A program made the position numbers and the translations under genes. Below, piece by piece: positions 36,398-58,700 of a stretch of DNA of 64,000 bases. The DNA is from Cloeon dipterum (Eukaryota; Arthropoda; Insecta; Ephemeroptera; Baetidae), in contig NC_088789.1 of assembly GCF_949628265.1 (NCBI RefSeq), forward strand, positions 20,887,883 through 20,951,882, given 5' to 3'. Position 1 is the first letter of the stretch. The number at the start of each line of letters is the position of its first letter. The notes beneath the pieces are model-generated. The model was not told where the DNA came from and searched no databases. It saw only the letters and a program-made list of their open reading frames with translations.

Positions 36398-39300
36398 ATG
36401 AGCACAGGATTATTTGTGCTCCTGATGACAACCGTGGCAGCATGCGAGGGAGCCATTTACTTTGATCAAAGGGTGATATTTTATGTTACTCAAAGCATAA
36501 TACCAAGATTCGCTCATCTTTAATTTGATCTTTCAGCCTCACCAGCCAGCAAGTGAATGTCGGAATTTCGGCAAAGAGAGGCCTGAATTGGAAGCGCCAG
36601 GTTAATCCCTTGAAATCAAACGCAATATCGGAAATCTTCAAAAACTAATATTTACCCTTAAATGAGTTCATTTTTTAATTATAATTAAAATTTTAATCTT
36701 TACTCCTTTTTGTAACTGGCATTTCTTGACGTTCATTTTAGTGTATTCTCCTGGAGATGAAAATTTGAGTTTTGAAGATTGCGGTCTTTGGGATGGTACT
36801 GGTGACATGCCGTGGACCGTGATAATCATCATTTACACTAATGATGGCGCTTTTGCAAGCGACACGGTATGCATACAATATACACTGAATTACAAAGCTT
36901 TTCCATTTTCCTTTTTTTTTAAATAATTATAATCAATCGTAATGATGTTTATAAGCATGTAGACAATCCCATGTATGGCTTTTTGGTGTCGAAGCAAACT
37001 GTGCTGGTCCCTTTTCGTGAGTATAACCATCAATTCTATGCAAATTCTTTAAAATAAAATAGCGCGTTGCATCTTGATTTTGCTACTCAGGAAGATAAAA
37101 AGTCATTTAAAAATATCGCATCAAGATGTATTACTTAATTAAATTTTCAATAGTATCTATTTAAAATGAGCATTAAATATTCTTGATATACAGGAGCATG
37201 ACTTGAAACTAATTAAAAATGTAGAGAAAAATTTTAATGCTTTTGTTGTTACTTCTATAAAGAGACTTATCCCTGATTTATAATTGTTCTTTATTCGCAT
37301 TCCAGGTTCAGGTGGGAATCAATATCAACAATTTCTATCACATTATGAGCTGCGTTATTTTCAGTTATACCCAAATACGAAGTGGAAAACTATCGCCTGT
37401 ATGCTGGTCCATGCTATTCTGGGCCAAAAACAGATTCTTGTAAATTTGGAAGAGGATTACTTCAGCAAAAAGTAGGAATTCATTGCATTATTTGTATGAT
37501 TTTATCAGAATATGAATATTTTTTCAATCCTAACAATTATTAAACATTTTTGTATGTTAGGTTTTATCAAGGGAAAGTTTCTTTTTGAAAATCCAACCAG
37601 TGGCAATCACGCAGCATTTGAGGCCAATCTGTTTATGGAATCGGAACAATTTGCAAGACTCCATTTTTCCAACCTTTATTTTTACTAAAAAGGAGGTATG
37701 ATTTGCACTCATTTCATTTAACTGTTTTTTTTTTCGGAAATAACAATTTCCAGACCAAACTTAGGGCTGCTACACTGCTGAACCATCAACAATGCTATCG
37801 CAATAATTTGACATATCCTCCAATTTGCGATAATATGGAAAGGCTCATGTGCACTGGCTTGGAATTATCAGGTTTTTATGCTTCTATTTGCTTACTAACA
37901 ATGTCACATCACATCACGTGGTCAAAATCACAACAACAATATGTACAATTTCAGACGAGGAAAGTTATTGAGCTACAGAAAACCAATTAATTAGACCATT
38001 GTCACGGCAGATCATAAATTAAAATAATTGAAAGTTAGTTTCAAAAATTAAAAAATATTTTTCTGGTTTCACGCCTCTTTGTATTTTATTGTATGGTGTT
38101 TGTCTGCATTTATAATTTTTATTTTCAGGAGTATTTCTTACTATGAAGGTTGCAAACCGACATTATCTACGTGCTGTCGAATGGGGCTATCCAGTGCTTA
38201 GTAAAGATCTGGTTGAAAATAGGATTCTCTGGTCGGATATTATTTATTTCGTTAGCCTTATTGTTGCTCTCTCGCCTGATTTGACTCTGATGCCAAAACC
38301 CCCTAAACCAGCAAAAAAGATAGGCATGCAATATACAAAATGAGATTAATTAATAAATAATACCCTTTTATTTTTAACAGACTTTGGTGTCCAGGAGAGC
38401 TTTGCAGGTTGCGGGGAAATCACACAAGACAAAAGAAGAGGCCGTCAACGGCGAGACGACTCGCGGTTCGCATTAATTCACCATGGCACAAACGCTCCGA
38501 TCGAGCAAAATCCCTGGCACGCGAGTCTGACTGTACACTTGCCAATGACAGAACCAAATTACGACTTCTGCGGCGGCACATTGGTGTCCAAGAGGGTTGT
38601 AGTGACAGGTGAATAGCGATTTTTAAAAAAAATGTTTTTTTATTGCTGAACATAAAATATGATTTGCCTTTTTTGAATCTTTTTTGACTTCGCAGCCGCC
38701 CATTGCCTCTACAGTCCATCAACTGGTGCTCAATATGAAGCCGAATGGCTGGAAATTACCTTAGGGATGTATAACGCAGTAGACAGCGATGAAATCGGGC
38801 GACAGATGGTCCGGGTATTAAATTTATTTTTAATTTACTTTGCGTTTTTCCAGGTTGGTTAGAGAGGCGTATTAATTTTTTCTTCAATCGCTATTTACTT
38901 TCTAAAATATTATTTTAAAATAAAATTTAATATCTTTTGCATATATTTGAAGTGACAAAAATCCAAAGTCATTTTGTATTTGCAAGACATTGAAAAATTA
39001 CGGTTGGTTAATCGGTAATGTTAAAAAACTACAAAATGATTTGTCTGTTGTTACACGATTTGATAGCCAATAAAGATAAAAATGCTGTCCTAGAACTTCA
39101 TTAAAAATGCCATGAAAAAATGGATTTGGAAACCACCAAAATATTTAATTAATTGTTTCACGTTTTAAGTAATGAAATCCCATGTTGCACAGGCTGCTTC
39201 AGTTGTTATTCATCAGGAATACAACCACGATAGAAAAGATTTGCAGCACGACTTGGCATTGATAATCGTGAAAGAAAGCAGCATACAAATCACAGAGCGC

Positions 39301-39887
39301 GTAAAGCCTGCCTGCTTGTGGAACAGAGAATATGACTTTCATCACATTCAAAATAAAATTGGAAAGGTCTATTTCACTTGAAATTAATCGGTGTAAAATT
39401 AATAGAGATGTTTATCGGTTAACAGGTTGTTGGCTTTGGCCTGATAGAAAACTACTCGCGGCCAAACATCCTGCAGAAGGCGTTTTTGAGAATTGCACCA
39501 CATGAAGATTGCTTTTATTCCAATAAGAAGTTCTTCTCAAAGAATTTGAGGCCGGTACAAAACTTTTGCGTTGGATTTCCTAACAATGGTAAAATTAATC
39601 ATGTTTTTTAATATGAAACATTTATTCTCATTTTGGTATTATGATCAGCGACAAACGTTTGCGCCGGAGACAGCGGGGGTGGACTGCTCATCGCCGAGAG
39701 CACCTCTACCGGCAAACAGCGATTCTTTTTGCGAGGTGTTGTTAGTTTCGGCCTCTCCAAAATTGAGGAGATAAATAATGTTAGAACTCGCGTTTGTGAT
39801 ACGAATCAATTCGCTCTTTTTGTAGATATCACTTACTACATGGATTGGATTGTCCGGAACAGTCCTGATATTTCTGGTAATCTGTGA
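36398..39887 (+). CDS. Secreted two-domain serine protease, paralogue A
   Basis: Exons are 36398-36472, 36537-36600, 36742-36866, 36956-37016, 37365-37471, 37561-37695, 37754-37871, 38129-38323, 38381-38608, 38696-38814, 39193-39366, 39426-39588 and 39649-39887. They total 1803 nt, 600 residues. A signal peptide (MSTGLFVLLMTTVAACEG) leads to a degenerate trypsin-like domain (GDMPWTV, YGFLVSKQ, LRPICLWN) lacking the catalytic residues. A linker with RRGRQRRDD comes next, then a trypsin-like domain with PWHASL, AAHC (His372), HDLALI (Asp429) and AGDSGGG (Ser530). The residue at chymotrypsin position 189 is Asn524, so classical trypsin specificity is unlikely. Intron 8 starts with GC instead of GT. 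Exon 4 uses an acceptor giving a product four residues shorter than in B and C. It is the most diverged of the three. Substrate and biological role are unknown; an extracellular protease is inferred. Confidence 0.85.
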
Positions 39888-40023
39888 TTAACCTATCAGG
39901 CCACGCTTGCAAACCAATTAAATTTAAAAACGTTGAGTTCCAAAATTGAGATTTGATTTCTTTTACCCAGGAATTAAACCCCCGAAAATATTTCCCACGG
40001 GTTATAAGCATTTGTAAGCAAAA
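39888..40023 (+). terminator. 3' flank of gene A
   Basis: An attaaa hexamer lies near 39,916, about 30 bases after the stop, and may serve as the polyadenylation signal. From about 39,970 the sequence is homologous to 44,878 onwards, marking the left edge of the duplicated unit. Confidence 0.3.
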
Positions 40024-40515
40024 TTAGAAGCTGTGGGGGTTGAGTGCGGGCTGATTTGTGACTGTAGTAGTCTCTTTTGCATTGCAATGACGAGTTAATT
40101 CTGATTTGGGAGGATTGCAAATCTTCTGACTCGCTTCTTGCTGATTTGCACCTTTCCACCATGCGTGAATTAATATCCCTGGACGAATTCCTAGTTTTTC
40201 ATTAAAAGACGTCAGTGTGGTGGAGGCAATAAAATGAGGATGGTCTTTTTTCTGTATTGAACCTTTCCCTCGGCGGGAATTATCGGGACGCGATTTCCCG
40301 TAAAAAACGAAATGCGATTTAATAACACGATTCGACAAAACATCCTGTACTTGGAGGGAGACTGTGCCGCCAAGCAGTCCGTTAGTGCGGGTGGCATAAT
40401 ATATTTCCACGTCGCGGTGGAGCAGATTGAGGAGCTTCTTTGATGTAAGCCAAGCACTCATACTCATACACATGACTTGAGAAAAACAGCGCATGACAGA
40501 TGAGATGATATACAT
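40024..40515 (-). pseudogene. Open frame or gene fragment repeated between protease genes
   Basis: A 163-codon minus-strand frame contains DVEIYYATRTNGLLGGTV, then SHFVFYGKSR and GIRPGILIHAWWKG. The segment is duplicated at 44,925-45,480, where small indels break the frame. A short third piece lies near 63,485-63,530, also shifted. The strand-turn pattern faintly recalls the N-terminal half of arrestin-domain proteins (an IYY...G..V.L core followed by FxGK), but the match is too weak to name it. It is probably an old gene fragment carried along by duplications. Confidence 0.3.
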
Positions 40516-40887
40516 GCATTTGGACTTCGGAGGTGCTTTTGTGAATTATGGTGCCTCCAAGAGCTCTATTCTACTAGAAAACTAGACGAGTTAAAAGCTT
40601 TTCTAATGGATTTTTTAGATGTTTAGATAGATGACTACAGCCAGAATGGTAAAATATTGGCTACGTAAAGCATTCTAGGAAGCCCTAAAATATTTTACGT
40701 GAAAAAATCTTTAAATGAAACAAAAATTCAGAATCATAATCACTTTTTGCGTTAGTATAATTATTACTTCCATTATTTGAATAATTGCCGTAACATTCAT
40801 AAAAAGAAATTTAAAAAGATTGGATATTTTATTTTTTCAATATCCCACTGTAATGAACTTTGTACCTCTTTCTGCTGTTGACTCAAT

Positions 40888-40919
40888 TGACCTTAGTCTC
40901 GGTCAATATGGAAAGGTCA
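40888..40919 (+). promoter_or_regulatory. Half-site cluster before protease gene B
   Basis: tgacct (40,888), ggtca (40,901) and aggtca (40,914) lie within 32 bases, about 90-120 bases before the start codon. The block ccttagtctcggtcaat is identical before gene C. The half-sites match the nuclear receptor core; hormone control is only inferred. Confidence 0.4.
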
Positions 40920-41007
40920 TGCAAAAATAGATTTTAAATTGTATCGGCTTGGTAACAATTATAAGTGGAGAGTTTCCATTTGCGACTAGAATGTACAAGA
41001 ACACAAA

Positions 41008-44000
41008 ATGAACGAAATGAACACAATATTGATTGTTCTTCTGGCGACCACTGTGGCAACGTGCGAAGGAGCGACGTACATGAATTCCGAGGTGAATTAT
41101 TCACTTTTAATTATAATACTTCTTCCAAAATTATATATTTAATTTTCTTGAATGTTTTTTGTTATTTCACATTTCAGCCTCACAAATTGCCACGTGAGTG
41201 TAGGAACTATGGCAAACCAAGACCTGCCTTAGATGCACCAGGTTAGATGGAAATATCTAAAACGCTTTTATTACAAATCCTTATTGATTTTTATGAATGA
41301 CCTTCAAAAATGGGCAAAAGAAAACTAAATCTCATAAATGATGTGCGGTTCTCTAAGTCTAAATTTGAAATGCTAGCACTAGCTTGAAAACTATTTGTTT
41401 CTATCGTTATTATGTACGAAGAGTAAGTAATATCTAGCTTTTAATTCTAGTTTATTCACTTGAAAATGAAAATTTGAGCTTTGAGAAATGTGGACAATGG
41501 GATGGCGATGGTGACATGCCATGGACTGTGATTATTGATATTAAACCTGATTCCGATGTTTGGAGTTCACAACCGGTGAGTAAACAATAAAACCTGGCTC
41601 CGCATTTTTCCTTGAGTGTGACACTTTAATTTCACATCAATATTGGGTTCATGTTGCAGATGCCTAGCGATGTGTTTAACCGTTATTCTTATGGTTTTCT
41701 GGTGACGAAGCAGACTATGATGGTTTTCTTCAGTGAGTTATCCTAATGCAACACTTACGCGAAAATACTGTTAAATAGAATTCTCATTCGAAACAACAAT
41801 AAACAAGGATATTTAATTATATATATTCCAGTAAAATTAGTTGACACTGTATTATGTATGATCAGATTTTTTAAAACATAAATATATACAAATATGAGGT
41901 TCACCATCTATTTGCAAAATTAGGCCGACCCTGTTACTCGAAAATTTGAGCTGTAAATTATGATGTGTATTTTTGTTAACGTAAAGCAATTAAAATTAAA
42001 TGGTAGCAATATGTAATTGGTTTTTAGAGGAAACGAACACTGGTATGGAAAACTACCTGCTTTATGCCGGCCCTTGCTCTTCTGGACCAAACAACGAGAG
42101 TTGTCTTTTAGGAAGAGGATTACTAAATCAAAGAGTAAGAATTCGCCATTCTATAATGATTTTCAATTTTGCTCTTCAAAAATTCGCCAAGATTTTTTGA
42201 CTTAATTGTTCCATCTTCGTAATCTTAACAGGTGCTATCGAGGATGGGTGCATTAGCAGGGGCTCAGGTGTGGAAAATTGAAAAAGTCACGGTCACACAG
42301 AATTTGAGACCTATCTGCTTGTGGAATCGAAACAATATTCAAGATGCTGCTTTTGAATCCTTTGTCTTCTCTCAAACAAACGTAGGCGGTTATTTATTTT
42401 TCTATTTATATTATTCATTATTTCTCTCTCATTTAGAGGACTCTAAAAAAGACAGAACTTTTGAATAATCAGCAATGTTATCTCAGCAATAAATTGATAT
42501 CCCCTCAAGTTTGCAGCGAGATGGATTCACTGATGTGTACCAATTTTGAACATTCAGGTGATGAGAAGCTTGCAAAAAAATTATATCTCGTACTCAGAAA
42601 AAAGGTTTTTTTCTGACTTGAAGATTTGATATTGAAATTTGCAGTACTGATGAAATCATAGCACAGTGAAAATAGAAACATTTATTTTGTATTTTGTTTT
42701 TTTAATTATATAGATGTGATTGTTACATGATATTTGTTATTTGTTGCTTCATAAACAGAGGGACAGTTAGTTTAATAATTCATCCTGGTCCCGGCAAAAT
42801 TGCGTAACGTTCAACGACCAAACGCGAATTTCCTTGTTGCAAGAAAAGGTCAACAATCAATTCGACAATGAAAATTTGGGTGTTTGTTGAACGTTGCGCA
42901 ATTTTGCCGGGACCTGGACGAATTTATGTTTTCACATATTTGCAGGCATATTTCTAGTAATGAAAGACGCGAATCGATATTATTTACGTGCAACCAGATG
43001 GGGCAATTTTTTACTCCCTGAAGATCGGCTCGATGATAGAATTCTCTGGGTTGATATTCTGGGGAACATAAAACAAATTGTTTCCGCCTCAACTGGATTG
43101 TTTCTGATACCCCCTACTCCAAAACTTGCAACGAAAATAGGTATTATAAATGAGTTAAAAAAGAAACTCATTATTTATTGATATATTATCACGTCAACCA
43201 GACTTTGGTCCTGAGGAGAGCTACGCAGATTGCGGAAAGATCACTGGGAACAGAAGAAGAGGCCGCCAGAGACGAGACGATTTGGTATCCTCCTTCGTTC
43301 ACCACGGCGATAATGCGCCAATAGAGCAGAATCCCTGGCACGCAAGCCTCACGGTCAATTTGCCTGATCCTCTTTACGATGTCTGCGGTGGTACGCTGGT
43401 GTCCAAGAGAGTCGTGGTGACTGGTTAAGTCTGATTTTCATATTCAAAAAGCCCTGAAAATCACTATAAAATTTAAAGATTTTCAAATAAAATAGCTTTA
43501 TCGAATCCGCAGCCGCTCATTGCCTGTACAGTCCAACTGGCACTCAATATGAAACGGAATTGCTGGAAATCGTCTTGGGAATGTACGACGCAGCAGACAA
43601 CGAAGATAACGAGCGGCAGGTGGTGAAGGTTAAAAAAATCAAACTCTCGTAACTTATTTTAATATCTTGAATTACAAAAAAATAATACATTTAAAATATC
43701 TGGTAACTTTTTAATTGCTATCAATATGTGACATAATTCTTCATGAATCCTTTGCATATAAATGTTACTTGAGATTTTAATTTAGACTAAATTTAACTTT
43801 TACACAGGCCTCTTCCGTTGTAATTCATCAGGATTACGATCATGGCAGAAACGATTTTCAACACGACTTGGCCCTAATAATTCTGAATGAAAACAGCATA
43901 CAATTCACAGATCGAGTGAAGCCAGCATGCTTGTGGAACAGTGATTACGATTTTGAGAAAATCGCTGGCAAATCTGGAAAGGTTTCTTAGTCATCATTTC

Positions 44001-44496
44001 ACCGTTTTAACTTTTTCAAAATTTATTTCGTTTCAAAGGTTGCTGGCTTTGGCCTAACAGAGAACTATTCACAGGCAAGATTCCTGCAGAAGGCGTTTTT
44101 AAGAATAGCACCACACAACGAATGTTTCTCTTCCAACAAAAAGTTTTTTGCTGAGAATTGGAAGCCAACTCTAAACTTCTGCGCTGGATTCCCTGACAAT
44201 GGTTTAATGACTTCATTTGTGTTTAAGTTGAGCGAAAATTCTGATCAATTTGTACAGGGACGAATGTTTGCAATGGGGACAGCGGCGGCGGACTGCTCAT
44301 CGTGGATGACACTTCGGTAGAGAACAAGCGGTTCTACTTGCGAGGCATTGTTAGTTTCGGTCCTAGTCAAATTAAGACGGTTGAAAATTCTAAAAAACGT
44401 ATATGCAATCCTTATCATTACGCAATGTTTCTCGACATCACTGGCTACATGAGTTGGATTGTTCAAAATAGTCCAGATATTTCACCTCGTCGTTGA
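41008..44496 (+). CDS. Secreted two-domain serine protease, paralogue B
   Basis: Exons are 41008-41091, 41178-41241, 41451-41575, 41660-41732, 42028-42134, 42232-42381, 42437-42557, 42946-43140, 43202-43423, 43513-43628, 43808-43981, 44039-44201 and 44258-44496. They total 1833 nt, 610 residues. A second in-frame ATG at 41,017 matches the start of gene C and may be the real start. After the signal peptide comes a dead trypsin-like domain: in exon 8 the whole Ser-loop is missing and GIFLVMKDANRYYLRAT follows directly. The linker is RRRGRQRRDD. The active domain has PWHASL, AAHC (His383), HDLALI (Asp439) and CNGDSGGG (Ser540), with Asn534 at position 189. Intron 7 is enlarged to 388 bases by a MITE. 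The protein is very similar to paralogue C. Secretion and proteolysis are well supported; the substrate is unknown. Confidence 0.87.
42781..42920. mobile_element. MITE in intron 7 of gene B
   Basis: Inverted ends of about 33 bases (tcctggtcccggcaaaattg and its complement) agree at all but two or three positions and enclose about 70 bases. AATT flanks both sides. Intron 7 of gene C has a single AATT and no insert, so C shows the empty site. A related element lies in the first coding intron of RRN3 at 59,093-59,243. Confidence 0.8.
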
Positions 44497-45968
44497 TGTA
44501 TCACTGAAAATTTGCGCGTATAAAAATAAAAATTGTTTAGTTACAAAAAATTCAAATCTTTCATGTTTTAAAAATATTGTTCACTGCTGTGGACGGTATT
44601 TCTTCTCAAAAAGCTGGACTTTGGGTCGTCTGCTGCACAGTTTCTCATAATCTTCATAGTACCTATTGTAACCGAGTATGAGTTGCGAGATTCAGGAATT
44701 TGAAGCAACATATATATATACATTTTTGTTAATGAAAAAAGGAGATATGTTGTTTTTAAAGCGTCAATGCGTGTCTTATAATGCAATGTAACAAAAATTA
44801 TTTTAACGCATAAGACACAATACGATAACATTATAATGAGAAATATAAAATTGAGATTTTATTTCCTTTGCCTAAGAAGCCCCCAAAAATATTTTTTCGA
44901 AAGGTAAGCTTTTGAAACCAAAATTAGAAGCTTTGGGGGTTGAGTGCGGGCTGATTTGCGCCTGTATTAGACTCTCTTGCATTGCAATGACGAGTTTATT
45001 CTGATTTGGGAGGATTGCAAATCTTCTGACTCGCTTCTTGCTGGTTTGCACCTTTCCATCAGGTGTGGAATTAATATCCCTGGGCGAATTCCTAGTTTTT
45101 CATTAAAAGACTTCAGTGTGGAGGCAATAAATTGAGGTGTTTTTTTTTCTGTATTGAACCTCTCCCACTGCAGAAATTATCAGGACGCGAGTTTTCGCAA
45201 AAAACGAATACGATTTAATGACTCGATTCCACAAAACATCTTGCACTTGAAGGGAGACGGTGCCGCCAAGCAGTCCGGCAATGCAAGTAGCATAATATTT
45301 TTCCGCTTTTTTCGCTATTTCTGGTAGAAAACACGCATGCCAAAGTCTCGTTGGCGCTGACTGAGGAGCATCATTAATGCATAGGTCTAACTACTCAATA
45401 CACATGACTTGAGAAAAAAAGCACATGACAGATGACAAACATTATACATATTATGCGTTTGGACTTCCGAGGTTCTTTTGTGACTTATAGTGCCTCCAAG
45501 ACCTCTCCTACTGGAAAACTAGACGAGCTCAAAACTTTTTTAATGGATTTTTTAGATGTAAAAATAGAGGACTACAGCCAGAACGGTAAAATATTGGCTA
45601 CGTAAAGCATTCTAGCAAGCCCCGAAATATTTTACGCAAAAAAGACAAGATAAAAAATTCTTAAAATAAAATAAAAAAGTCAGAGTCATAATCACTTTGC
45701 GTAATAAAATCATAACTTCTATTATTTGAATTTCCGTAATATTTATAAAGAGAAATTTAAAGATAGTAGAATGATATTTTATTTATTTCAATATCCAACT
45801 GTAACGAAAATAGCAGCTCTCTCTACCCAATGGACCTTAGTCTCGGTCAATGAGGAAAGGTCATCCAAAAACATATTTTAAATGTATTGGCATCGCACGG
45901 CTTGGCCACATTAGAAGTGAAGACTTTCCGCTAGCGACAAGAGTGTTCAAGAACAAAAAATCAAGGAA
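44497..45968 (+). other. Intergenic DNA between protease genes B and C
   Basis: An aataaa hexamer lies at about 44,525. From 44,878 the sequence repeats the A-B intergenic DNA (39,970-41,007), including the broken copy of the minus-strand frame (44,925-45,480). Compared with the flank of gene C, 87 extra bases sit near 44,592-44,680. Confidence 0.6.
45832..45863 (+). promoter_or_regulatory. Half-site cluster before protease gene C
   Basis: ggacct, ggtca and aggtca recur at the same spacing as before gene B; the first half-site differs at one base. The cluster lies about 106-137 bases before the start codon. Confidence 0.4.
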
Positions 45969-48900
45969 ATGAGCATAATATTGATTGTTCTTCTGGCAGC
46001 CACTGTGGCAACGTGCGAAGGAGCGAAGTACGTGAATTCCGAGGTGAATTATTCGCATTTAATTATAATACTTCTTCCAAACATGCATACATGATTTCGC
46101 AATTATTGTTTCAAATTTCATCAGTCTCACAAACTGCCACATGAGTGTCGGAAATATGGCAAACCAAGACCTGCCTTAGATGCACCAGGTTAGATGGGAA
46201 TATCTAAAACGCTTATTGAATGAATGAATTTATTATTAAACGCATATATATGCAATTTCTTATTCATTTTTATCACAAACTGGGAAAAGAAAATTAAATC
46301 TCATAAATGATGTGCTGTTTTGTAATTAATTATAAATTTGTAATTAAGCCACTTGCTTGAAAACTGCTTGTTTCTATCGTTATGTATGAAGAGAAAGTAA
46401 TATCCAGTTTTTAATTTTAGTTTATTCACCTGGAAAAGAAAATTTGAGCTTTGAGAAGTGTGGACAATGGGATGGCAGTGGTGACATGCCGTGGACTGTG
46501 ATTATTGGTATTAAACTTGTTTCCAATGTTTGGAGCACTCAACCGGTGAGTAAACAATAAAACCTGACTCCGAATTTTTCCTTGCGTGAGACTCTTTAAT
46601 TTCATATCAATTGGGTTCATGTTGCAGATGCCAAGCGATGTGTTAGGCCATCATTCTTATGGTTTTCTGGTAACTAAGCAGACTATGATGGTTTTCTTCA
46701 GTGAGTTATCCTTGTGCAACACTTTCGCGAAAACACTGTTAAAATAACTCTAATTCTAAACAACAATAAACAAGAATATTTAATACATAAATAATATTCC
46801 AGTAAAATTAGCTGACACTATATGTTTGATTTTTTAAAACATAATGTGCATAAAAATAGGTTAACAATTATCTATTTATTTTCAAAACTAGGCTGACCCG
46901 ATTTATTCGAAATTTTTAGCTGTAAAACGATGATGTGAATTTTTTTATTTCAACGCAAAGAAATTCAAATTAAATGGTAGCACTATATATGTAACTGGTT
47001 TTTAGATCAAATGAACACTGAAATAGAAAACTACCAGCTTTATGCCGGCCCTTGCTCTTCTGGACCAAACAACGAGCGTTGTCTGTTAGGAAGAGGATTG
47101 CTAAATCAAAGAGTAAGAATTCACCTTTCTGCAATAATTTTCAATTTTGCTCTTCAAAAAATTGCAAAGAGCTTCTGACTTAATTGTTCCATCTTTGTAA
47201 TCTTAACAGGTGCTATCGAGGAACGGTGATCAGGTGTGGAAAATTGAAAAAATCACGATCACACAGCATTTGAGGCCAATCTGCTTGTGGAATCGAAATA
47301 ACTTTCAAGATTCTGCTTTTGAATCCTTTGTCTTCTCTCAAACAAGCGTAGGCGCGGTGTATTTATTTTTCATTTAAATTATTGATTATTTCTCTCACAT
47401 TTAGAGGACTCTAAATAAGACAGAACTTTTGAATGATCAGCAATGTTATCTCAGCAATAAATTAATATCCCCTCAAGTTTGCAGCGAGATGGATTCACTG
47501 CTGTGTACCAATTTTGAACATTCAGGTGATGAGAAGCTTGCATATATTATTCATAAAGAGAGGCACGGCTAGTTTCATAATTTTTGTTTATCATATATTT
47601 TCAGGCATGTTTCTAGTAATGAAAGACGCGAACCGATATTATTTACGTGCAACCAGATGGGGCAATTTTTTACTCCCTGATGATCGGCTCGATGATAGAA
47701 TTCTCTGGATCGATATTCTGCGGAACATAAAACAAATTGTTTCCGTCTCAACTGGCTTATTTCTGATGCCACCAACTCCAAAACTTGCAACGAAGATAGG
47801 TATTATAAATGAGTTAAAAAAACTCATTAATTATTGACGTGTTAACACGTCACCCAGACTTTGGTCCTGAGGAGAGCTACGCAGATTGCGGAAAGGTCAC
47901 TGGGAACAGAAGAAGAGGCCGCCAGAGACGAGACGGTGTGGCATTCTCCTTCGTTCACCACGGCGAAAATGCGCCAATAGAGCAGAATCCCTGGCACGCA
48001 AGCCTGACGATCAATTTGCCAGATCCTCTTTACGATGTCTGCGGTGGTACGCTGGTGTCCAAGAGAGTCGTAGTGACTGGTTAAGTCTGATTTTCAAATT
48101 AAACCTGCTTAAAATCGCTATAATCTTTAAAACAATTCAAATAATATAGTTTTTTCAAATCCGCAGCCGCTCATTGTCTGTACAATCCAACTGGCACTCA
48201 ATATGAAACGAAATTGCTGGAAATCGTCTTGGGGATGTACGATGCAACAGATGACGAAGAAATCGGGCGGCAGGTGGTGAAGGTAAAAAAAATCAAGCTC
48301 TCGTCGTAACTTATTTAAATATAGATAATCTTATTTAATCAAATTAAAAAAAATAATACTTTTAAAATATCATCTGATAACTTTTTAGTTGTTATCAATA
48401 TGTTCATGAATCTTTTGCATGTAAGATTTTAATGTAGACTATGTATAACTTTTACACAGGCCGCTTCCGTTGTAATTCATCAGGATTACGATCATGGCAG
48501 AAACGATTTTCAACACGACTTGGCCCTAATAATTCTGAATGAAAACAGCATACAATTCACAGATCGAGTGAAGCCAGCATGCTTGTGGAACAGTGATTAC
48601 GATTTTGAGAAAATCGCCGGCAAATCTGGAAAGGTTTCTTAGTCACCATTTCACCGATTTAACTTTTTCAAAAATGGTATCGTTTGAAAGGTTGCTGGCT
48701 TTGGCCTAACAGCAGAGAACTATTCACAGGCAAGATTCCTACAGAAGGCGTTTTTAAGAATAGCACCGCACAACGAGTGTTTCTCTTTCAACAAAAAGTT
48801 TTTTGCTGAGAATTGGAAGCCAACCCTAAACTTCTGCGCTGGATTTCCTGACAATGGTTTAATGAATACATTTGTGTTTAAGTTGGGCTAAAATTCTGAT

Positions 48901-49152
48901 CAATACTGTACAGGGACGAATGTTTGCAATGGGGACAGCGGCGGCGGACTGCTCATCGCGGATGTAACTTCGGCAGAGAACAAGCGGTTCTACTTGCGAG
49001 GCATTGTTAGTTTCGGTTCCAGTCAAATTAAGACGGTTGAAAATTCTAAAAAACGTGTATGCAATCCTTATCATTACGCCATGTTTCTCGACATCACTAG
49101 CTACATGAGTTGGATTGTTCAAAATAGTCCAGATATTTCACCTCGTCGTTGA
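45969..49152 (+). CDS. Secreted two-domain serine protease, paralogue C
   Basis: Exons are 45969-46043, 46125-46188, 46421-46545, 46628-46700, 47006-47112, 47210-47347, 47405-47525, 47605-47799, 47858-48079, 48167-48282, 48460-48633, 48691-48856 and 48914-49152. They total 1815 nt, 604 residues. Signal peptide is MSIILIVLLAATVATCEG. The N-terminal dead domain has DMPWTV, YGFLVTKQ, LRPICLWN and no Ser-loop. The linker RRRGRQRRDG holds a furin-type RQRR. The active domain carries AAHC (His376), HDLALI (Asp432) and CNGDSGGG (Ser534), with Asn528 at position 189. Before the domain, VHHGDNAP stands where IVGGxxAP is expected, with no Arg/Lys directly ahead of it. Intron phases run 0,1,0,1,0,0,1,1,1,0,0,1, as in A and B. 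It differs from B mainly by a 12-base shorter exon 6, one extra Ala in exon 12 and scattered substitutions. Confidence 0.87.
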
Positions 49153-55759: not shown

Positions 55760-58700
55760 TCAGTAGGCTTTGAACCCTGGAGTCGATCCATAACTGAACT
55801 TGTCCAGTGATCTCGACATTTTGGTGGGGGAAATGAGGTGCGTGAAGCTCCCAGGAGACATGCATTTTGGCAGTGACTCTTTCGGTGGAGTACCAAACGT
55901 TTCCTCGTTCTCAGAATCGGACCTCTCGTCGCCAGGCTGTTCGAGTGGTTCGTACTCTCTATACTGATCATTTATGAACACTGCTGACCTGTTCAGCAGG
56001 TATGGGTCGAATGGGAAGAAGCAGTTTAAGTTGGTGACCGTCTGCTGTCCTGACAGGCTCACGGTGGGAAGCTGGCTCCTCGAGTTTTTCTCCAAAACCT
56101 GAAATGAGATAAATATTTGCTGTTACAATTTGTTCGAAAAATTAATAATATGTTATGTAACATAAATTAAATTTATTTTTAGACTTTTAATGGACGCAAT
56201 ATTTTAAGGTGATATTTAAGCAATATTTTCCATTAAAATTATTCAACCAAAATCATAAAGGAACAGAAATTTAAACTTATATCCTGAAAGAAATTTCGTT
56301 GAAAATATTAAAAAAAAATCGCATTAAGGTTAATAAATCGGTAAAAATCCAGTATAATATCATATATAATAAATTTACCGTAAAGCAGTAAGCAATCTGA
56401 TAGGTCCTGGTGACAGTGGCAAAGTTCTGCGCGACGGCAGGTAGGCAGGGCTTCAACGGGTTGAGCCTAGAGGTGACCAGCTTGGCCAAACCGAGGCTCT
56501 GGACCCACTTGAGGCCTTTCTCGGTGGCCATCAGGTCAGCGTGGCGGAAGGCCACAATGTAGAAGAGGCCCTGGCACACCGAGTAGAAGATTCCATGCAT
56601 CTTGACGTCACAGATCGTGGCGTCCTGCTGCGCTTCCACATACGCGTGGCACCATTTGGACATCTGCTGCAAGATGCACCGCGTTGCGTTCACCGATACA
56701 AATTGACCCCGGGACACCACGCTGGCGATGTAGTGCGCCGCTGTTTGTCTCACCACCGCGTTCTCTCCCATCCGAGTCACTTTGCTCCATAGTGCAGCTG
56801 AAATTAAATATATAAAAAATTAGCAAAACAGGGCAAAAAATCAAGAATATAGGATTATATCTTTTTGGTCTGCATTGGCAAAAAGAAAAACGTTTAAACA
56901 AAAATTGGCTTTTATATCCAGTTTTATTTTCTTTAATTTTATGTGATATTTATGACAAGAACAAACAATTATATTATTATGTTATAAGTTCAGAAGGAGA
57001 AGTGGGTGCCTTGGAAACCTTGGAATGACAAAGTAGAGAATATTTTTAAATAATTCAACCAGATTTTGTTTTAATATTTTAAAATAGATAACATCATGAT
57101 TAGCTTCAAAAGTTAATATTAAAAATAAAATATTAGCCCTGAAAGGAATATTTTGATAAGTGTGCACAGTATTGTATTCCTAGATTAAGATTTCATTTTA
57201 TATCGATAACATTCCAAGTTCTAGGAATTGTAATTGAATCAACTCAATCAGTGTTCCATTTAAAAAATTTGATTTTCTTAACGTAGTGACGGTAGCATAA
57301 CACCACAAACGTCAGTTTTTGTTTGATCAAATTTTCTTTAAAAGCGCAATTGACAAGATGAATCAATCGATGTGTTATTGTTCACTCCTCATGGCACAAA
57401 CCGACAAGACTCAAGTATGGGTCTGATCAAAAATAAATAATTATTAATAATTTACATATCATTTTCATCAACATGCAGGATTTAAATTATAAAATATCAC
57501 TCTTTGTATTGAAATCAATTTTGAATCAGTTTGGAAGCATCGTTGTGATCCTTGAAATAACTTTATAAACTCTTCAGGCAACCAGAGATCACTATCAGTT
57601 AAAATTAAATATCCGCACATCATTTCCTTGCAAGAACTGTGAAAAAGCACTACTACTTTTTGCCTAACTATTCAAATTTGATAAGATAAAATTACATAAA
57701 GAATTAACAACGGTTTGGTATGGAGATCCAGCTTTAAATCAAAATTATCACATCACTCACTCAGAAAAAGTTCTGGAAGTATGGGCCTGAGGGTGCACAG
57801 GTAGAACATGCAGAACTGCACGTGGTGGCTGCCGTGGACGTTGAGCAGTTGGTGCTCAAAGATTTCAAGAAAGTCCTTGAAAATGCTCTGGTGGTGGATG
57901 ATCTCGTTCTCGTCTGCGTCTCTCGAGCAGAACTCTTTGACGAAGACAAAAATCTGTTCCATCAGCAGGTCCAGGGTTTGTGCCAGCTGCTGCTGCATGT
58001 TTGTGTCCACGACGCTGGTGATTCTTGAGGCGGCAGACCGAGACACGTCATCCATCGTGAAAACAGTTTCCGTGTCGTCCATTTTAGCGTCAGTCTCCAT
58101 TTCTTCTTCGTCACCTTCGAGCGCCTCCAAGAGTTTTCGCGGAATTTGTACATCTATGGATATCACCCTGGGAGTGAAAATTTTAAATTAATATGGCTCC
58201 TTATTTTAAAATTGAAATCCATACTTTTTAATAATGAGTGATAAAATTTTACTCCGCATTTCGGGTCTGTATGTGCAGATCTTGAACAGGTTGTAAACGT
58301 AACTCTGATTTACCCTGCTTCCTCTTTTCATGAATGGAAAACAGAAGTCACACGCTTGAAGCAGTACATCTGCAGACCTGTCAAAGATCAGTTGTTGTTA
58401 ATCCATGATTGTATGTTCATGCTTGTTTTCATACATTGGTATTATCTTCAAAATTTGGTTGATGGTTTCGTGTAACCTTGAAAAATGTAATTCTTCCTTC
58501 ACACTAGGTTTTGTGCTTGGCCATGGCTCGTCTCCAAATCCTGTAAAATAGGGATGAATTTCAGTATGGGAGAGATTACAGCCTTAAATATACAAACCAT
58601 AAAATTTTCGCAACAAACTCTCCAGCACTGTACTCGTGAAGTTTGTGTGTGTCGCAACCAATTCCAAGAGAAATTGTTGGAATTTTGAGGCCAAAGCGTC

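Follow-up and report, generated by a model that had tools for sequence, protein, structure and literature searches.

Related proteins and the locus

Human polyserase-2 and polyserase-3 are secreted proteins in which tandem S1 serine protease domains are encoded by one gene (PMC1435904). According to that report, the first S1 domain of polyserase-2 is active and the next two are dead, polyserase-3 has the triad residues in both domains and no Arg-Ile-Val-Gly-Gly activation motif, and neither protein is cleaved between its domains. Three genes (g1, g2 and g3) within a 64,000-nucleotide stretch of Cloeon dipterum DNA (contig NC_088789.1, positions 20,887,883 to 20,951,882; referred to here as the window, in which positions were counted) likewise encode predicted secreted proteins with tandem S1 domains, dead ones included as in polyserase-2. 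As in polyserase-3, the Arg-Ile-Val-Gly-Gly motif is missing. The order is the reverse of that reported for polyserase-2 (dead first, then active), and in 17 of 20 modelled family members the two domains are separated by a convertase-type site. The resemblance to polyserases suggested in a preliminary description of the locus thus held for the predicted tandem S1 domains in one chain and failed for domain order and the conserved site.

Multi-domain polypeptides with two or three S1 domains, composed of serine protease (SP) and serine protease homologue (SPH) domains, are known in insects (PMC11172050). In that source, the Tenebrio molitor polypeptidases are mostly Sushi-SP-Sushi-SPH, an Anopheles layout of SP(H)-SPH-clipE-SPH is cited, and activation of the six secreted Tenebrio polypeptidases is predicted at Leu-Ile rather than at Arg. 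The window genes resemble these insect chains in carrying several live or dead S1 domains, so they are not wholly unclassed, and the earlier remark that no named family was like them had to be narrowed. They differ in that the Tenebrio and Anopheles proteins have Sushi or clip modules, four of the seven transcripts from Tenebrio have an N-terminal SP ahead of an SPH (the opposite of the window order), and seven transcripts compare with dozens of genes in the window family.

The Drosophila proteins cSPH35 and cSPH242 are clip-domain homologues that serve as cofactors in prophenoloxidase activation, with the catalytic Ser replaced by Gly (PMC10540698). A positive role of a dead S1 domain towards a protease is also what is proposed below for the window family. 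In cSPH35 and cSPH242 the dead domain is a separate clip protein in which only the Ser is replaced, whereas in the window genes it lies in cis and has lost three catalytic positions together with the Ser loop.

The resemblance to clip-type homologues noted earlier was not upheld, since CLIP (PF12032) had no Pfam match in the g3 protein or in the N-terminal halves of g1 and g3. Gastrulation-defective proteases, also S1 enzymes of insects, have an extensive N-terminal region (GD_N, PF16030) and are activated in a non-standard way. GD_N matched nowhere in the same three sequences, and both assignments of the N-terminal domain were rejected; GD_N and CLIP were each matched at three places elsewhere in the genome, which pointed to an insect. 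Within the literature covered, the window family appears distinct in its dead-then-active order, in its convertase-type site and in its size. No description of a dead-then-active S1 layout was returned by the literature search, which is weak evidence because subscription papers were mostly outside its coverage.

Architecture of the three window genes

The genes g1 (36398..39887, 600 aa), g2 (41017..44496, 607 aa) and g3 (45969..49152, 604 aa) were arranged head-to-tail on the plus strand. Each was modelled with 13 exons and an SPH-SP product, and spliced alignment with g3 recovered g2. Internal stops were absent from all three models, and the intron phases (0,1,0,1,0,0,1,1,1,0,0,1) were identical. 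All junctions were GT-AG except the GC donor (38324) of g1 intron 8, which ends exon 8. A transcript left unspliced at that donor would hit a stop soon after exon 8 and so encode the dead domain alone. Each protein opened with a hydrophobic, signal-like stretch (judged by eye), from which secretion is predicted.

Exons 3 to 8 encoded a degenerate S1 domain (N-domain) at 36742..38323 in g1, 41451..43140 in g2 and 46421..47799 in g3. The AAHC position, which includes His57, read VPF in g1 and VFF in g2 and g3, and HDLALI, the Asp102 motif, was absent (by eye and by motif check). By eye, approximately 12 residues around the Ser loop were deleted at the start of exon 8. The equivalents of the scaffold cysteines Cys1, Cys122, Cys168 and Cys182 were retained. 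Exons 9 to 13 encoded a second S1 domain (C-domain) at 38381..39887 in g1, 43202..44496 in g2 and 47858..49152 in g3, with His57 (exon 10), Asp102 (exon 11) and Ser195 (exon 13) intact and with AAHC, HDLALI and GDSGGG all present. The g3 C-domain was assigned to peptidase family S1A (Pfam Trypsin E 6.5e-35, 121 bits against a cut-off of 20.6). By profile, the C-half matched 507 PDB sequences, with thrombin, plasma kallikrein, factor IX and pro-phenoloxidase activating enzyme-I among the best. The dead domain preceded the active one in all three genes, and the domains were separated by a basic linker: KRRGRQRR at 38431..38454 in g1, and RRRGRQRR at 43252..43275 in g2 and 47908..47931 in g3, each ending in the convertase-type motif RQRR. 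The preliminary description had reported this plan, the lost catalytic positions and Ser loop, and an open dead domain in all three copies, and the gene models, the motif checks and the Pfam match agreed with it on each point.

The intron between the halves was 58 bases long in g3 (47800..47857), 57 in g1 and 61 in g2, which leaves hardly any space in which the second half could have its own promoter and signal peptide. Because this intron is so short and exon 9 starts in mid-codon, separate transcripts for the two halves are unlikely, and the proposal that the halves are separate genes was set aside on the size and phase of the intron. By the models and this intron, each of the three genes would encode at least two S1 domains.

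Identity between g2 and g3 was 85% in the N-half and 93% in the C-half; between g1 and g3 it was 57% and 67%. On these values g1, the most divergent of the three, is taken to be an older copy than the close pair g2/g3. The tandem duplication unit was approximately 4.6 to 5.0 kb, intergenic DNA included.

Origin of the N-terminal domain

Direct searches with the window N-domains gave little. A Pfam scan returned nothing credible (only UbiD, at E 0.27 for g3), and a PDB profile search with the three domains returned no match at E<=1. Comparison of N-domain and C-domain profiles with hhalign gave E 1.1e-4 over 207 columns with three sequences on each side, E 2.5e-11 with eight on each side, and E 2.9e-17 (raw score 93.7, 231 columns) with 10 N-domains against eight C-domains. 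The highest score among 100 column-shuffled controls was 25.7. Hidden Markov model searches agreed in both directions: the N-domain model matched 8/8 C-domains (E 1.9e-11 to 8.9e-7), and the C-domain model matched 10/10 N-domains (E 1e-6 to 9.5e-4).

With a six-sequence N-profile, all nine PDB matches at E<=1 were S1 proteases of four kinds (chymotrypsin-C, enteropeptidase, complement C2 and Gram-positive specific serine protease), each match being weak (best E 0.012). One of four divergent paralogue N-domains (L058) matched Pfam Trypsin at E 0.0028, under the curated cut-off. Introns 4 to 7 in the N-half and 9 to 12 in the C-half shared the phases 1,0,0,1, including a site within VT|AAHC, and the N-half carried one intron more. 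Profile similarity along most of its length therefore gives good support for the N-domain as an S1A-derived pseudoprotease domain; profiled separately, this half is trypsin-like, as had been proposed.

Distribution of the family in the genome

Searches of the genome (190 Mb, 10 contigs) indicated that the window trio is part of a far larger family, with dozens of such genes. Close relatives were located at C4:21.80-21.81 Mb (two copies) and C2:8.925-8.941 Mb (three full copies and one with a C-domain only), the prefixes here and below denoting contigs. The five full copies repeated the 13 exons and phases of g1-g3. Distant relatives occurred in clusters on C2 and C4, the large ones at C2:34-36 Mb and C4:29-32.6 Mb; those modelled also had a dead domain upstream, with partly different exons, and the 13-exon layout was not common to all of them.

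Among the matches listed, 62 of 74 related Ser-exon loci were preceded, at a distance of 0.5-4.5 kb, by an N-domain match in the same orientation. At the same distance, control counts were 17/74 downstream (the genes being clustered) and 4/74 on the opposite strand. These counts are lower bounds on the family; matches within 400 bases were merged, and the Ser-exon rows were in part picked as related by judgement. The 62 include C2b, which borrows the N-domain of C2a, and the 12 without an upstream N-domain include L067 and L069, in each of which the spliced model revealed one. A genome scan with Pfam Trypsin (150 of 713 candidates scored) was not used for counts.

Twenty genes were modelled for comparison: g1-g3, five close relatives (L054, L055, and C2a, C2c and C2d from L056/L057) and twelve divergent ones (L058, L060-L063, L065-L067 and L069-L072). 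Excluded were L059, with a weak N-domain model and Asn in place of Ser195; L064, in which no C-domain was located; L068, a trypsin-like gene of another kind; L073, a GD_N locus; and C2b, which lacks its own N-domain and has Arg in place of Ser195. C2a was trimmed at the family C-terminus for the substitution-rate, profile, triad and tree analyses. AAHC or GDSG was kept in none of the 20 N-domains. The C-terminal triad was intact in 17 of the 20 genes, a proportion inflated by the exclusion of L059 and C2b; Asp102 of L063 was read by eye after the motif pattern had missed it.

Common descent and selection

In an unrooted joint tree (FastTree), a branch with support 1.000 divided the 20 N-domains from their 20 C-domain counterparts. 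Across the 20 genes, distances between N-domains were correlated with those between C-domains (Mantel r 0.965, 0/2000 permutations). From this split and the tracking of distances, the pair probably formed once and was then inherited as a unit, although local gene conversion and long-branch effects may have contributed to the pattern.

The ratio of nonsynonymous to synonymous substitution rates (dN/dS) was estimated by the Nei-Gojobori method with 200 codon bootstraps in 10 comparisons. Five older comparisons (dS >=0.77) gave N-domain values of 0.32 (g1-g3), 0.32 (g1-g2), 0.34 (g3-C4p1), 0.37 (g3-C2d) and 0.47 (C4p1-C2d), with bootstrap upper bounds of 0.47-0.65 and C-domain values of 0.20-0.22. 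For g2-g3 the N-domain value was 0.48 (0.29-0.76) against 0.32 in the C-domain. As judged from these ratios, the N-domain is under long-term constraint, weaker than that on the enzyme. The older values favour a retained function, and selection appears to have maintained the dead half. The earlier suggestion of a retained function was thus supported among the older copies and not among four young comparisons, given with the contrary evidence below; for g2-g3 the upper bound reached 0.76.

Linker, predicted cleavage and specificity

The convertase site consensus and the chymotrypsin numbering used here are general knowledge. R-X-[KR]-R was present between the domains in 17/20 genes (missing from L058, L065 and L066) and occurred seven times in the other 9688 residues of the same proteins, so the motif is concentrated in the linker. 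At the mature start (position 16, aligned to IVGG), the P1 residue was F, L, Y, H or Q, and Arg or Lys was found in 0/19 assessable genes; the register of the mature start of L070 was uncertain. Residue 189 was N, T or S in 19/19, and a trypsin-like pocket is therefore not expected. In the catalytic domain, Cys1 preceded the basic site, and Cys122, with which it normally pairs, was present, so the chains should remain linked after cleavage.

Members departing from the plan

L058 (C4:21278500-21284000) had a C-domain without Ser195 and a linker without the basic site, and would be a double pseudoprotease. In L069 and L072, His57 was replaced by Lys and Arg, respectively, in an otherwise conserved catalytic domain, and the basic site was kept in both. 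Outside the 20, it was also kept in C2b, where Arg replaces Ser195, and in L059, where Asn does. A rule that the basic site is lost whenever Ser195 is lost suits L058 and was rejected because C2b and L059 contradict it.

In C2a (C2:8935436-8937088), the family stop codon was lost and the reading frame continued to a plausible donor. The exons after this donor encode a further C-type domain in which Ser195 is Arg. If spliced in this way, the product could be a dead-active-dead triple protease, and the read-through would illustrate a route by which tandem proteases arise. The C2a N-domain had only 5 cysteines, against 7-8 in close copies. A frameshift check of its exon 7 found the usual sequence in no frame, so that this exon looks diverged rather than shifted.

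Other features of the window and contigs

Behind g1, four segments (families D13, D14, D16 and D18) in the intergenic stretch at 40005..40706 recurred behind g2 at 44905-45643 and form part of the duplication unit. Exons of a gene for RRN3, an RNA polymerase I initiation factor, lay on the minus strand at 56277-58187 (Pfam E 5.3e-42 and 3.4e-18), a neighbour usable for synteny. At the end of contig C4 (L074), the sequence was made up of AT-rich repeats, in which runs resembling TTAATTAA were accompanied by a GAAGACGCGACAAAA block that recurred; a telomere repeat of recognised type was not found in the 761 bases at that contig end.

Proposed mechanism and alternatives

The reading that we favour, at a little better than even confidence, is that a pseudoprotease prodomain is cut from a non-tryptic protease, stays tethered to it by a disulfide, and has a regulatory or docking role towards it in cis. 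The two-domain gene would go back to a single old intragenic duplication, that of an S1-coding exon block with its leading ENLSFxxCG-type segment. The first copy would then have lost three catalytic positions and the Ser loop and retained the scaffold cysteines, becoming the pseudoprotease prodomain, and the second copy would have remained a protease. The pair would have been passed on as a unit and multiplied to dozens of genes, g1-g3 included. After secretion, a furin-like convertase would cleave at R-X-[KR]-R between the domains, and the pseudoprotease would stay attached through the Cys1-Cys122 disulfide, Cys1 lying upstream of the cut. Release of the catalytic domain at the mature start would then fall to a protease with cleavage after hydrophobic or aromatic residues; the catalytic domain might perform this step on its own, as Asp189 is missing from its S1 pocket. 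Still tethered, the pseudoprotease might serve in cis for docking, as a cofactor or as a restraint. A bolder version, which we hold to be rather unlikely, is a large lineage-specific family of dozens of pairs that are made as single chains, split by a convertase, held together by a disulfide and capable of self-activation after a hydrophobic residue, and in which the dead half is a cis cofactor whose divergence sets the partner or substrate.

Several observations weigh against the favoured reading. We infer convertase cleavage and disulfide pairing from motifs. L065 and L066 have the triad and no R-X-[KR]-R, and dead C-domains occur both with and without the basic site, so the linker does not track catalytic competence; a non-catalytic role for some members is possible. 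The N and C trees were not identical: the C2 trio was resolved differently, and the C tree grouped g1 with the C4p pair, whereas the N tree placed it outside a group of C4p and g2/g3. The dN/dS of the N-domain exceeded that of the C-domain in 10/10 comparisons, and in four young ones it was 0.63 (C4p1-C4p2) and 0.76, 0.86 and 1.15 (C2 copies), with intervals reaching at least 1 and C-domain values of 0.28-0.53. Drift or diversification may be under way in the recent C2 copies. The N-domain values of 0.32-0.47 came from comparisons that share sequences, some with dS >1. Models of distant paralogues came from guided spliced alignment, in which frameshifts are invisible and N-domain exons may be wrong.

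An alternative to which we give a low probability is that the N-domain is a classical prodomain, an intramolecular folding aid or inhibitor lost in the mature enzyme. It would fit the position of the N-domain before the enzyme, with a convertase-type site between them in most genes, and also the faster drift of the N-domain in every comparison, as prodomains often diverge faster than their enzymes. The proposed cut falls, however, between two cysteines of the catalytic domain, at the Cys1 and Cys122 positions, and the N-domain is predicted to stay attached. Improbable in our judgement is an ordinary expansion of digestive or venom proteases, in which the two-domain layout is incidental to bulk proteolysis; the large clusters on C2 and C4 do look like expanded families of secreted proteases, but the non-basic activation residues and the missing Asp189 argue against a plain trypsin. 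Slightly less probable still is that the dead domain is a tolerated relic of internal duplication with no function of its own, for which speak its weaker constraint, the ratios of 0.76-1.15 in three C2 comparisons, the five cysteines of the C2a N-domain and the in-frame continuation of C2a into a further S1 copy (Ser195 to Arg), a sign that passive fusions can occur, and against which stand the older ratios with upper bounds of 0.47-0.65, the stop-free N-domains of the window trio and five close paralogues, and the tracking of N and C distances across 20 genes.

Concrete predictions about maturation follow from the conservation of the convertase-type site and from an activation residue that is not basic. 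The best-known serine protease homologues are separate proteins in trans, whereas the window family provides dozens of natural pairs in cis. With an apparent single origin and a range of divergence among its members, the family may open the effect of a dead S1 domain on its live partner to study by deletion and domain swap.

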